Below, in pieces: positions 31,325-35,524 of a DNA stretch of 64,000 bases. The stretch spans positions 1,544,218-1,608,217 of the forward strand of contig CP075365.1 in assembly GCA_019454125.1 (NCBI GenBank). The letters run 5' to 3'. This DNA is from Fimbriimonadaceae bacterium (GTDB taxonomy: Bacteria > Armatimonadota > Fimbriimonadia > Fimbriimonadales > Fimbriimonadaceae). How positions within the stretch are numbered: the first letter of the stretch is position 1; every line of letters begins with the position of its first letter. Under the pieces are notes generated by a model. The model did not search any database. It worked only from the letters and a program-made list of their open reading frames with translations, and had not been told where the DNA came from. The position numbers and the translations under genes are program-made.

Positions 31325-31810
31325 ATGGCGAACGACGTGACCCTCTCCCGGGAAGGCTACGAACGGTTGAAGGCAGAGCTGGAAGAGCTGAAGTCGGTCG
31401 AGCGCGCCCGGATCGCGGACAACATTCGCGAGGCCAAGAGCCACGGGGACCTGCGCGAGAACGCAATGTACCACGAGGCAAAGCTCAACCAAAAGAGGCT
31501 GGAGGGGCGGATCGCCGACCTCGAGCACGTGCTTCAGGTCGCGAAGGTGGTCGATACGGGCGAGCACGACTCAGACGTCGCCCACATGGGTTCGAAGGTG
31601 ACGGTCAAAGACCTTGAATGGGGCGATGAGATCCAGTTCACGCTGGTCGGCGCCTTCGAGGCAGACCCTGCGAACGATCTGATCTCGGTCTCCTCGCCTC
31701 TGGGCGAGGCGCTGGTCGGCCACCCAGTCGGGGCCGAAGTCCAGTTCGAGACCCCTGCCGGCCCCCAGAAGTACAAGATCCTGGCGATCGAGCCCGCCAG
31801 CGCAGGCTGA
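31325..31810 (+). CDS. greA: transcription elongation factor GreA
   Basis: GreA rescues backtracked RNA polymerase by stimulating transcript cleavage. The 161-residue protein has the N-terminal coiled coil with the catalytic acidic tip (KSHGDLRENAMYHEAK) and the C-terminal FKBP-like domain ending KYKILAIEPASAG. I used the ATG at 31325; the longer upstream frame has no Gre similarity. The gene is divergent from the large secreted protein. Confidence 0.96.
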   Translation: MANDVTLSREGYERLKAELEELKSVERARIADNIREAKSHGDLRENAMYHEAKLNQKRLEGRIADLEHVLQVAKVVDTGEHDSDVAHMGSKVTVKDLEWGDEIQFTLVGAFEADPANDLISVSSPLGEALVGHPVGAEVQFETPAGPQKYKILAIEPASAG

Positions 31811-31919
31811 GCGCTCTCCCGGCCCCTGAAAATTGTGCCGGGCTCCCATGACTAGGGAAACCTTTTGTCCGTTCGGACCGTTGGTATCTGTGGCGCGGAA
31901 CCAGTTTTCGCGTCAAATC

Positions 31920-31948
31920 TTAACCGCTAGGAGGTGGTGCCGTAGAAT
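31920..31948 (+). promoter_or_regulatory. sigma-70-type promoter of putative small RNA
   Basis: TTAACC (-35) and TAGAAT (-10) are separated by exactly 17 bases. This is among the best-formed promoters in the window and points to a start near 31954-31957. Confidence 0.65.
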
Positions 31949-31954
31949 GAGTAG

Positions 31955-32077
31955 TACGAAACGCCGCCAGGGAGGAGCGGGGTTTTAGCGACCCTGTCCT
32001 GAGACTAGGTTCGTCATGAACCGCGGTCTCCCTGGTTAGTCCAGTAGCCCCGGCCCCTCCGGCCGGGGTTTAACTTT
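31955..32077 (+). ncRNA. putative intergenic small RNA with three-way junction and own terminator
   Basis: The 317-base space between greA and the transposase-like gene has no convincing reading frame but strong RNA features. CCAGGG (31967-31972) pairs with CCCTGG (32030-32035). Inside, hairpin 1 uses AGGA/TCCT and GGG/CCC (31973-32000), and hairpin 2 uses GAGAC/GTCTC plus GGTTC/GAACC (32001-32030). The two hairpins abut, giving a compact three-way junction. A terminator follows: CCCCGGCC (32048-32055), loop CCTCC, GGCCGGGG (32061-32068), then TTTAACTTT. The size is about 120 bases. It does not match tmRNA, SRP RNA, 6S or riboswitches that I know; family unknown. Upstream, 31811-31919 shows only a weak CCCGGC/GCCGGG hairpin after greA. 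Confidence 0.6.
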
Positions 32078-32127: not shown

Positions 32128-32595
32128 GTGCCGGCCTGGCGGAATTTCAGCATTTGGCGAGGAAAGCTGCCGCATTGGCGCGCGGACGGCGTGACCTATT
32201 TCGTCACGTTCCGCCACCGCCGGCCCCTCAGCGAGGACGAGCGGCAGGCCCTCTTCCTCCAGCTCCTGAGGGCCAACGGCCGAAAGTGGAACCTAAGCCT
32301 GCTCTGCGTGCTCTCCGAGAAGACCGACCTGCTCGTGACGGTCGGGGAATCCCCGGGGGGTGAGCCCTACGAGCTCAGCGACGTGGTCGAGAAGGCGAAG
32401 ACCAAGGCGGGCAAGGCCATCATCAGGGCCAGTGGCGAGCGTTACCCGCCTTTTTATGGGGAAAGTTACGACCGGATCGTCCGCGACGACGAAGAGTTCG
32501 AGAAGTTTTGGCTTGAGATCGTCGACGGTCCCGAGCGGCACGAGGGCGCAGACGTGGACGAGTACGAGTTTCTTTGGGCCGATGGCGCTCCCTAG
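32128..32595 (+). CDS. REP-associated tyrosine transposase-like protein, HUH motif lost
   Basis: The 155-residue protein resembles Y1/RAYT transposases (IS200-like): LPHWRADGVTYFVTFRHRRPL at 14-34 matches the family opening, and SYDRIVRDDEEFEKFW at about 113-128 matches the helix with the catalytic Tyr (Y114). The metal-binding HUH motif, normally MPNHVHLL, is replaced by LSEKTDLL at 62-69, so both histidines are absent. The frame is otherwise intact, which suggests loss of transposition with retained expression. The GTG start has TACAAT six bases upstream. It lies directly after the putative small RNA. Confidence 0.8.
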   Translation: MPAWRNFSIWRGKLPHWRADGVTYFVTFRHRRPLSEDERQALFLQLLRANGRKWNLSLLCVLSEKTDLLVTVGESPGGEPYELSDVVEKAKTKAGKAIIRASGERYPPFYGESYDRIVRDDEEFEKFWLEIVDGPERHEGADVDEYEFLWADGAP

Positions 32596-32676
32596 AAGCC
32601 TTACCTAACCGATTGCCCCCTGGTGGGTGGAACGCAACACGTGAACGGGTCCGCAAAGCCCGTGGCCAGGTTGCCG

Positions 32677-34233
32677 ATGACGCCCGAAATCATAAACGGA
32701 TTGGCCAAAGGCCTTGAGAGCCTTCACGACTCCTCCGAGTCGCAGGGCGAGATGGGCCGAAGACGACTTTTCTCGATGGGAGCCCTGGCGGTGGGCTCCT
32801 CAATCGCGTCGGCCATGGGCCGCGAGGATCCGGCCCCTGCGCCGGCGCCACCCCCTGGGACGCCGAACCCGGGAGTCTACAAGAACTGGACGGACCCGGC
32901 CCTGCGCCTCGCACGCCGGATCACCCAGGGCATGGACGCGGACACGGCCAGCCAGGCCAAGCAACTTGGCTACGACCGCTTCTTGAGCCAGCAGATCAAC
33001 TTCAGCGCGATCGACGACAGCGCGTGCGAGAACGTGGTGAAGCAGAAGTGGCCGCGGGTCCTCCTGCCGATCGGCGCCCTGAAGAACTTCAACGATGACT
33101 GGGTGACCAGCCAGCAGGTCGCCGAAGCCACGATCTACCGGTCGATCTATTCGAAGCGGCAGCTCTTCCAGCGCATGGTGGAGTTCTGGGTGGACCACTT
33201 CAATGTCTGGATCGACGCGGTGCCCGGCCCGATCTTTGCAACATACAATTACGACCGGATCCGCCGGAACGCGATGGGGAACTTCAAGACCCTGTTGCGC
33301 TCTGTGGCGTTCAGCCCGGCGATGCTGCACTACCTGAACGCGGACCGGAACTTCTGCAGCAATCCCAACGTCAACTTCGCCCGCGAGCTCATGGAGCTGC
33401 ATACGATCAGCTCGAGCGGGGGGTACACGCCCCAGGACATCGTGAGCGTGGCCCTGGCGTTCACCGGCTGGCGCTGGGAGTGGGACAGGAACAAGAAAAC
33501 GTACGGCACGTTCAAGTTCGAAATGGACGCCCACGCGATCGGCGCGAAGGTCGTCCTGGGCGAGGTCATTCCGGGAGGCATGCGCGAGGAAGGCGAGCGC
33601 GTCTTGGACATCCTAGCCGCCCATCCCAACTGCGCCAAGTTCATCACGGCCAAGCTGTGCCGCTGGTTCTTGGGCGAGGACGCGCCACAAACCGTCCTCG
33701 ACGCGGCCGCGGCCGCCTTTACGCGAACCGGCGGGGATATCAAGACCGTGCTGCGAACGATCCTTGCCCAGGACAACGTGGTGAGGTCTGCGCCGCGCTA
33801 TAAACGGCCGTACCACCTCTTCATCAATGGTTTGAGGTCCAGCAAGGCAGCCCTGACAGGCGATATGTGGACGTTCCGGGTCGGCCACCTGGAACGGGCG
33901 GGCCACGCCCCCTTCCAGTGGGAGACGCCCGATGGCTACCCAGACCGCTTTGAGTTCTGGTCGGACGCGGCCCTGCCGAGGATCAACTTCGCCCTGAACC
34001 TTGCGAACAACCGCATCTGGGGCATGACGTGCGACATTCCGGCCATGATCGGCGCCGATCGAGACCCGGACAGGGTCCGCGACATTTTGAACTTCGCCTA
34101 CTTCGGCGGGGAGATGTCGACCGTGGACCGCGACGCTCTCGAGCAGTTCCTGCGAGGCGGGCTGCTCACAGACGAACGGCTTCGAGGCGCCGCCGCGCTC
34201 TGCATGGCGAGCCCGAGTTTCCAGTGGTACTAA
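32677..34233 (+). CDS. DUF1800 family protein
   Basis: The 518-residue protein has a Tat-like leader (RRRLFSMGALAVGSSIAS at about 28-45) and the DUF1800 fold: ATIYRSIYSKRQLFQRMVEF, FWVDHFNVW, NPNVNFARELMELHT, GYTPQDIVSVALAFTGW and LAQDNVVRSAPRYKRPYH. DUF1800 proteins nearly always occur beside DUF1501 proteins, as here; the joint function is unknown and is probably outside the cytoplasm. The ATG at 32677 was preferred over an upstream GTG at 32623 because AGG lies eight bases before it. Confidence 0.9.
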   Translation: MTPEIINGLAKGLESLHDSSESQGEMGRRRLFSMGALAVGSSIASAMGREDPAPAPAPPPGTPNPGVYKNWTDPALRLARRITQGMDADTASQAKQLGYDRFLSQQINFSAIDDSACENVVKQKWPRVLLPIGALKNFNDDWVTSQQVAEATIYRSIYSKRQLFQRMVEFWVDHFNVWIDAVPGPIFATYNYDRIRRNAMGNFKTLLRSVAFSPAMLHYLNADRNFCSNPNVNFARELMELHTISSSGGYTPQDIVSVALAFTGWRWEWDRNKKTYGTFKFEMDAHAIGAKVVLGEVIPGGMREEGERVLDILAAHPNCAKFITAKLCRWFLGEDAPQTVLDAAAAAFTRTGGDIKTVLRTILAQDNVVRSAPRYKRPYHLFINGLRSSKAALTGDMWTFRVGHLERAGHAPFQWETPDGYPDRFEFWSDAALPRINFALNLANNRIWGMTCDIPAMIGADRDPDRVRDILNFAYFGGEMSTVDRDALEQFLRGGLLTDERLRGAAALCMASPSFQWY

Positions 34234-34246
34234 GGAGGCACCCAGA

Positions 34247-35524
34247 TTGAGCCAAGGCTGTCAAGACTATCACCTCACCCGCCGCCAGGTTATTGGCGGC
34301 GCGACGGCCGCGACCGTCGCCTCGATGCTCGGCGTCTCCTGGCTGCCCCAGGTCGCCTATGCCCAAAGTGGCCCGACCCGTGACGTGATCATCTCCGTCT
34401 TCCTGCGCGGCGGGGTGGACGGGCTGTCGATGATCGTGCCGTACGCCGACCCGAACTACTATGTCCTGCGCCCGAACATCGGCGTGCCGCGGCCCGACGC
34501 GAACACGAACCGCAAGGCGGTGGACTTGGACTCCTTCTTTGGGCTGCACCCTGCCCTCGGTGTCCTGCTGCCCGCCTATATGGCGAGCGACCTTCTCTTC
34601 ATCCACGCGATCGGCGCGGCCAACTGGAGCCGGTCCCACTTCGACGCGCAACGCTGGATGGAGGTCGGGTCGCCAAACGACTTCACGTCCATGACAGGAT
34701 GGTTGGGGCGGCACCTCGCCACGACCGCGCCCGTGAAGAGCAGTTCGCCTTTGCGGGGTGTGAGCCTGACCTACGGGCTCCAGCGGACGATGAACGGGGC
34801 GCCGAAGACGCTTCCCATCCGCGACCCAGGAAACTTCGACTTCGGCGGTAATTTCAGCAACGAGGCGGAGATGAGCCTCTGGGTCGGGCGGCAGTACAAC
34901 CGCGTCAACGACGCGACGACGGCCGCGGTGACGAACACGCGGAGCACGATCGCCATGCTGGACCGCATCAATTTCAGCGGGTACCGCCCGGCTGGCGGCG
35001 CGGTCTATAACTCGGACGGGTTCGCGAACTCGCTGAAGGCCACCGCGGCCTTGCTGAAGGCTGATGCAGGCGTGGAGGCGGTCCACATCGACCTTGATGG
35101 CTTCGACACCCACTCCGAACAAGGCGTGGTGAACGGCTACTACGACCAGCTGATGCGGGTCCTCGGGAACGGTTTGTCCGCGTTCTACACGGACATGAAG
35201 GCGAGCAACAAGATGCGGTGGACGCTCGTGGTGCTCAGCGAGTTCGGGCGGACCGCACGGGAGAACGGCGCGCGCGGCACCGACCACGGCACCGGAAACT
35301 GCATGATGGTGCTCGGCGGCGGCGTGAACGGGAAGCGCGTCCTGCGGCAATGGCCCGGCCTTCGGCGCGACCAGCTCTACCAGAACGTGGACCTGGCGGC
35401 GACGATCGACTATCGCGACGTGCTCGCGGAGATCCTTTATAAACGGGCCGCGAACCGCACCCTTTCGACCGTGTTCCCGGGCTACACGCCCCAGTTCCGC
35501 AACGTCGTGAAAGCTGCTGCCTGA
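34247..35524 (+). CDS. DUF1501 family protein
   Basis: The 425-residue protein has a Tat signal (LTRRQVIGGATAATVASMLG) and belongs to the DUF1501 family, related to alkaline phosphatase/sulfatase folds. Marks include FLRGGVDGLSMIVPY, LHPALGVLLPAYMASDLLFIHAIG (near 105), LDGFDTHSEQG, LSEFGRTARENGARGTDHGTG and VFPGYTP at the end. The TTG start at 34247 is fixed by a strong AAGGAGG eight bases before it, right after the DUF1800 stop, so the pair is one operon. Confidence 0.92.
   Translation: MSQGCQDYHLTRRQVIGGATAATVASMLGVSWLPQVAYAQSGPTRDVIISVFLRGGVDGLSMIVPYADPNYYVLRPNIGVPRPDANTNRKAVDLDSFFGLHPALGVLLPAYMASDLLFIHAIGAANWSRSHFDAQRWMEVGSPNDFTSMTGWLGRHLATTAPVKSSSPLRGVSLTYGLQRTMNGAPKTLPIRDPGNFDFGGNFSNEAEMSLWVGRQYNRVNDATTAAVTNTRSTIAMLDRINFSGYRPAGGAVYNSDGFANSLKATAALLKADAGVEAVHIDLDGFDTHSEQGVVNGYYDQLMRVLGNGLSAFYTDMKASNKMRWTLVVLSEFGRTARENGARGTDHGTGNCMMVLGGGVNGKRVLRQWPGLRRDQLYQNVDLAATIDYRDVLAEILYKRAANRTLSTVFPGYTPQFRNVVKAAA

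Follow-up and report, generated by a model that had tools for sequence, protein, structure and literature searches.

The locus between greA and a RAYT-like gene in the genome of a Fimbriimonadaceae bacterium is a real small RNA gene, present as one conserved copy in many genomes of the Armatimonadota, and almost certainly a translated one, in which a micro-ORF behind a strong Shine-Dalgarno (SD) sequence ends inside a structured core. The whole stretch of DNA that was analysed, called the window here, comprises 64,000 nucleotides (positions 1,544,218-1,608,217 of the single-contig 2.65-Mb genome). A preliminary description of its positions 31920-32077 had proposed a candidate small RNA with a strong terminator and a compact fold of no recognised class. 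An undescribed structured RNA with this fold and terminator was confirmed, whereas the proposed promoter, transcript start and 5' boundary, and the view that the region holds no convincing protein, had to be given up, since the RNA contains a conserved, SD-driven micro-ORF with its stop codon in the structured core. The element represents an unlisted RNA family with clear gene borders, occurring in several classes of a phylum that has been little studied, and it is unusual in that the open frame, the strong SD and the structure-embedded stop persist while the peptide varies. If our reading is correct, it would be a regulatory RNA whose function is being translated, not the product of translation.

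When 61 genomes were searched at the DNA level, similar sequences turned up in many genera of the window's family. A covariance model (R1) built from 14 of them detected a single copy in each of 50 of the 85 genomes of the family, 53 of 113 of the class Fimbriimonadia and 76 of 291 of the phylum. A second model (R2) was built from 20 sequences, all of other classes. It matched 70 genomes outside the window's family, recovered the window copy with E = 8e-5 although it had no Fimbriimonadia input, and matched five Fimbriimonadia copies at coordinates identical to those given by R1; its RNAalifold structure looks wrong in the outer pairs, and R2 was used as a search model only. Taken together, the two models found the element in about 123 of the 291 genomes of the phylum. 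A covariance search for homologues in relatives had been suggested in the preliminary description, and single-copy homologues with paired changes were indeed obtained. Near-complete genomes of several genera of the window's family (g9, g18, g24, g27, g29 and many of g19) contain no detectable copy; here loss and divergence cannot be told apart. In a pattern scan of one genome per species (84,980 species), convincing matches were restricted to the Armatimonadota, and five matches outside the phylum, all without ORF, promoter or hairpin, were rejected as chance.

The statement that the fold belongs to no recognised class agrees with Rfam 15, which gave no match in the window, chance-level matches only in the 351-base region and, up to E = 0.1, none in 16 homologous loci. 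The covariance model of 6S RNA (RF00013) did not match at the locus, and in two relatives 6S RNA maps elsewhere; one of the two (G038) possesses the element as well. Likewise, a separate tmRNA (RF00023) is present in 13 of 13 genomes tested, including that of the window (C1:787398-787748). In the portions of text searched, two papers on RNA discovery in genomes (PMC11109978, PMC8632094) do not mention Armatimonadota, and the RNA is not described in the parts of the literature that we searched, which also included PMC6429828, although an unnamed listing in supplementary tables is possible.

The surroundings of the gene differ between the classes. In nearly all Fimbriimonadia loci with enough flanking sequence greA lies upstream, either directly adjacent or separated by one lipoprotein-like gene; a good number of the class's genomes have kdsB on the downstream side. 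In other classes the neighbours differ, and greA, where present, sits downstream. Convergent downstream genes code for ferrochelatase (L100), lysyl-tRNA synthetase (L007) and a metallophosphoesterase (L004). The lipoprotein-like gene, present in most Fimbriimonadia (e.g. L013:727-1398), evolves fast and has no Pfam or NCBIfam match. In the window, a GC-rich inverted repeat (CCCGGC...GCCGGG, 31818-31842) without a T run lies just past greA and is possibly the end of the greA transcript. The RAYT-like gene at 32128-32595 is degenerate (22.4 bits, below the cut-off of 80, and E = 8.7e-5 for NF047646, REP-associated tyrosine transposase; Pfam gave no match). It is an incidental neighbour: of the two flanking genes, only greA is conserved next to the element in the class. 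Further downstream, a DUF1800 gene and then a DUF1501 gene occupy 32665-35524.

Table 1. Features of the small RNA gene and its upstream neighbour in the window
Feature	Position	Strand	Evidence or remark
greA	31325..31810	+	Pfam GreA_GreB; conserved upstream neighbour in the class
-35 element GAAAC of the predicted ECF-type sigma promoter	31857..31861	+	class-wide motif enrichment
-10 element CGTT of the same predicted promoter	31879..31882	+	class-wide motif enrichment
5'-terminal stem-loop, 10 bp, 5-nt loop	31891..31915	+	directly past the predicted start
Shine-Dalgarno sequence AGGAGGTGGTG	31929..31939	+	nearly invariant across the phylum
Micro-ORF ATG...TAG, 13 codons, MSSTKRRQGGAGF*	31947..31988	+	conserved open frame
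Outer stem P1, 5' strand CCAGGGAG	31967..31974	+	compensatory changes
Internal SD-like GGGAGG, within the 5' strand region of the outer stem	31970..31975	+	6-7 nt between its end and the last sense codon
Hairpin H1, CGGGGUU-UUAGC-GACCCUG, UAG stop (31986-31988) in the loop	31978..31996	+	covariation, fold
Hairpin H2, GGUUC-GUCAU-GAACC, conserved AUGAA	32008..32022	+	fold comparison
Outer stem P1, 3' strand CTCCCTGG, CU-rich	32028..32035	+	compensatory changes
Intrinsic terminator, 9-bp stem, 5-nt loop, T-rich tail (hairpin 32047-32069)	32047..32077	+	homologue comparison

The promoter had been placed at 31920-31948 (TTAACC-17-TAGAAT). This match was indeed listed by the promoter tool, yet its 'TAGAAT' falls in the spacer that separates the SD from the start codon, running into the ATG (31947-31949). 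It is also not conserved, since sigma70-type matches within the window's class occur at the rate of shuffled sequences (4.2% versus 3.3%). Instead, an ECF-type motif, GAAAC/GCAAC-N15-18-CGTH, nearly always with N17 and with CGTT or CGTC as the -10 form, was found in half of the homologues from the class (23 of 46), where shuffles gave 0.5 expected and at most 3 (200 shuffles). Relatives near Fimbriimonas have a GAACC-N17-CGTA variant nearer to the SD. In the other classes, TTGACA-N16-18-TATAAT promoters, matching at 9 or more of 12 positions, are present in 22 of 27 loci against 4% of shuffles, and mostly end 10-20 nt upstream of the SD; four loci from outside Fimbriimonadia (L103, L104, L106, L113) have no sigma70 promoter and may use another sigma factor. 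Copies of the window's class with the ECF-type motif may be transcribed by an ECF sigma factor. A scan of the window genome gave two exact matches to the motif, too rare to define a regulon; the single other match adjoins unrelated genes.

Because the conserved promoter lies upstream, at 31857-31882, transcription of the window copy probably begins at about 31888-31890, and not near 31955 as had been assumed. The predicted transcript would thus extend from about 31888 to 32077, about 185 nt. A short stem-loop lies just downstream of the ECF promoter in 23 of 23 such loci (mean z = -3.8), although the sequences that form it are unrelated; a stable RNA would be expected to begin with such a structure. 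At the other end, the terminator proved as strong as had been claimed, with a terminator-like hairpin at the corresponding place in 60 of 75 distinct homologues, against 4.8 expected.

The SD of every homologue is GGAGGTGGTG or a close variant, followed mostly by 7-8 nt to the start codon. A start codon and an in-frame stop delimiting 10-14 codons were found in 75 of 75 distinct loci; 74 begin with ATG, and the sole copy without it (L080) starts at an in-frame TTG and ends at the same stop. The absence of a convincing protein, noted before, is therefore contradicted by a 13-codon frame with a perfect SD that is open in every homologue. The distance from ATG to stop changes only by threes, that from SD to ATG by single bases. 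The stop is TAG in 62, TAA in 10 and TGA in 1, yet TGA is common in the long ORFs of these loci. The residues themselves are not maintained in the same way: in close pairs, residues 2-7 show 18 synonymous versus 61 non-synonymous changes, and compensated small frame changes inside the ORF (CAACGGAGG, CAACCGGAG and CAACGAGGT) alter the residues and keep the stop. The outer stem and UUUUAG give rise to the C-terminal xGGxGF of the class, and CGAGGUGA to the RGDxxG of the others. Frame and length are conserved and the peptide sequence is not. Since the peptide varies while the frame, the SD and the placement of the stop are kept, we infer that the micro-ORF is translated and that selection evidently keeps translation itself, not its product. 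The conserved AUG of 'AUGAAC' was rejected as the start of a second ORF because the frame that it opens is not conserved; readthrough or +1 frameshifting at UUUUAG was likewise rejected, as the downstream frames, read by eye, are not conserved and yield no conserved product.

Most copies also contain an internal SD-like sequence, the end of which is separated from the last sense codon by 6 nt in the class and by 7-9 nt in the others, close to normal initiation spacing. In L057, L059, L069 and L072 no internal SD is recognisable, and the outer stem is changed in members lacking it. Holding of a ribosome by the internal SD cannot be universal because of these few members.

The region 31954-32076 folds with -62 kcal/mol, compared with -45.2 +/- 3.8 kcal/mol in shuffles (z = -4.4), and compensatory changes are found in the outer stem and the first hairpin, in support of the compact three-way fold that had been noted. 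Among 48 distinct Fimbriimonadia sequences, two-sided compensatory changes affect 8 of 10 pairs of P1, and compensatory changes in all 18 pairs fill 65 cells versus 18 in shuffles, counts that lean towards the model because the alignment was fitted to it. The covariation score of the same 48 sequences is 0.340, against at most 0.112 with the partners slid. H1 forms 8.00 pairs within its own sequence and 7.21 with other sequences (permutation maximum 7.67); this better pairing within than between sequences supports the three-way junction.

The junction is rivalled, however, by an alternative fold, a single long hairpin with UUUUAGC and NAUGAAC on opposite sides of an internal loop. The long hairpin is favoured by RNAalifold and, in most members, by energy, usually by 1-5 kcal/mol (median 2.8); the window sequence has -38.2 kcal/mol as the junction and -39.6 kcal/mol as the long hairpin. 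In the other classes the long-hairpin stem beside UUUUAGC/NAUGAAC covaries (6.68 versus 5.49, permutation maximum 6.20). The evidence is thus split, with free energy speaking for the long hairpin and covariation in the class for the first hairpin, and the core is treated here as able to adopt both folds. UUUUA and AUGRA are nearly invariant. UUUUAGC/AUGAAC as a genome-wide protein-binding site was rejected, with no other genomic copies and one chance match, and so was a switch in which the first SD pairs with the 3' strand, since such pairing is above 0.5 in just 18 of 75 and is not conserved.

The reading that we tentatively favour, and would place just short of probable, is that of a translation-gated regulatory RNA in which the terminating ribosome remodels the hairpin. 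The transcript, from the ECF-type promoter to the terminator at 32077, would carry a protective 5' stem-loop, the strong SD, the micro-ORF, the structured core and the terminator. A ribosome would load at the SD, read 10-14 codons and terminate at the stop inside the structured core, where the internal SD-like sequence, with its initiation-like spacing, could hold it. The held ribosome would melt the 5' strand of the outer stem together with the first hairpin, so that in the occupied state the core is open, which frees the AUGAA motif as well as the CU-rich 3' strand, and in the unoccupied state it is closed. The RNA may thereby report ribosome loading and termination and act in trans from one of the two states, and the copies of the class would be switched on by ECF-controlled stress. 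Candidate outputs of the open or closed state are pairing with mRNA, binding of a protein via UUUUAGC/AUGAAC and ribosome parking. A bolder form of this model, possible but distinctly more doubtful, would be a free-standing RNA switch, present phylum-wide, with the ribosome as its input: termination on the peptide-independent micro-ORF, with the ribosome held by the internal SD at its initiation-like spacing, would flip the RNA between two conserved folds, and a trans-acting or ribosome-parking state would track translation capacity.

Several other explanations have to be considered. A functional micropeptide of 10-14 residues, the expression of which is merely tuned by the RNA structure, would agree with the strong SD, the invariant open frame and the Gly-rich C-terminus (GGxGF in the class, RGDxxG in the others), but seems unlikely: residues 2-7 vary freely (the 18 versus 61 changes given above), the compensated frame changes alter the peptide, the outer stem, the internal SD and UUUUAG account for the C-terminal residues that are conserved, and no clear motif is common to the peptides of the two groups. 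We give no more credence to a classical base-pairing regulatory RNA, possibly an ECF/sigmaE-type stress RNA of the class, in which the ORF is secondary. Its own promoter, 5' hairpin and terminator and its variable neighbours suit such an RNA, as does the CU-rich 3' strand of the outer stem, which resembles SD-targeting seeds; this strand, however, co-varies with its partner and hence does not qualify as a conserved seed, conservation among single-stranded stretches is highest in the G-rich SD, apart from which no conserved unpaired seed was seen, and a purely non-coding RNA would not need a frame that is kept in 75 of 75 loci. Less probable still is an RNA that binds ribosomes and, by means of two stretches complementary to the anti-SD and a structured stop, parks or titrates them under stress. 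Two SD-like elements per RNA, a near-invariant first SD, the strong promoters of the other classes and the stop within structure could be understood in this way, but a single gene would need very high RNA abundance, and the internal SD is missing in some members.

Two readings tie the element to its neighbours, and both are very improbable. The SD, micro-ORF, hairpins and terminator follow the layout of a peptide-based attenuator, and kdsB is a frequent downstream neighbour in the class, as a leader (uORF) for a downstream gene would have it; however, because downstream genes are variable and often convergent (as in L100, L007 and L004), a leader function is excluded for lineages with a convergent neighbour and unlikely overall, and there is no run of regulatory codons. 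The position between greA and a degenerate RAYT gene might also point to a REP-like palindrome of the latter or to the 3' end of greA, the least credible of the explanations: every genome with the element has one copy, there are homologues that lack a RAYT neighbour, and in other classes the element is upstream of greA or not next to it and has its own promoters.

Individual features of the favoured translation-gated RNA are known from other systems. The programmed frameshift site of RF2 (prfB) features an SD-like sequence shortly before a stop codon, at a spacing of about 3 nt. The element resembles it in having an internal SD-like sequence just before its stop, and differs in the 6-9 nt to the last codon, in the stop (UAG/UAA) and in having no conserved downstream frame or protein. 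MicA, RybB and MicL, the sigmaE-dependent small RNAs of enterobacteria, have an ECF-type promoter and an intrinsic terminator, are non-coding and pair with mRNAs. A predicted ECF-type promoter and a terminator are shared with them, whereas the conserved ORF and the sigma70-type promoter outside the class are not. Dual-function small RNAs such as VcdRP of Vibrio cholerae (PMC8672173) are similar as short autonomous RNAs with their own terminator and an SD-driven small ORF, and the element accordingly has an autonomous transcription unit, by its predicted promoter and terminator, and an ORF conserved in 75 of 75 loci. VcdRP, however, works through both a small protein of 29 residues and a stretch that base-pairs (PMC8672173), whereas here the ORF has 10-14 codons, its stop lies inside the structured core, and the peptide is not conserved, its substitutions showing no selection for a functional product. 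The uORF attenuators of the ilvB and fthC motifs (PMC11109978) share the order of SD, AUG, short ORF and terminator and, in fthC, a stop within a hairpin, but the element has no consistent or co-directional downstream gene and no regulatory codons.

Two further structural observations were made outside the window copy. In many copies of other classes (L085-L107), GACUA precedes the SD and UAGUC follows the start codon, possibly forming a hairpin that encloses the SD, and copies that miss one half often miss the other half too. In HRbin16-like members (L116, L117, L114, L124, L126), the UUUUAGC/AUGAAC internal loop occurs twice in one hairpin, the second time with the order of its two strands reversed, and this doubling in HRbin16 and its relatives suggests a modular recognition motif.
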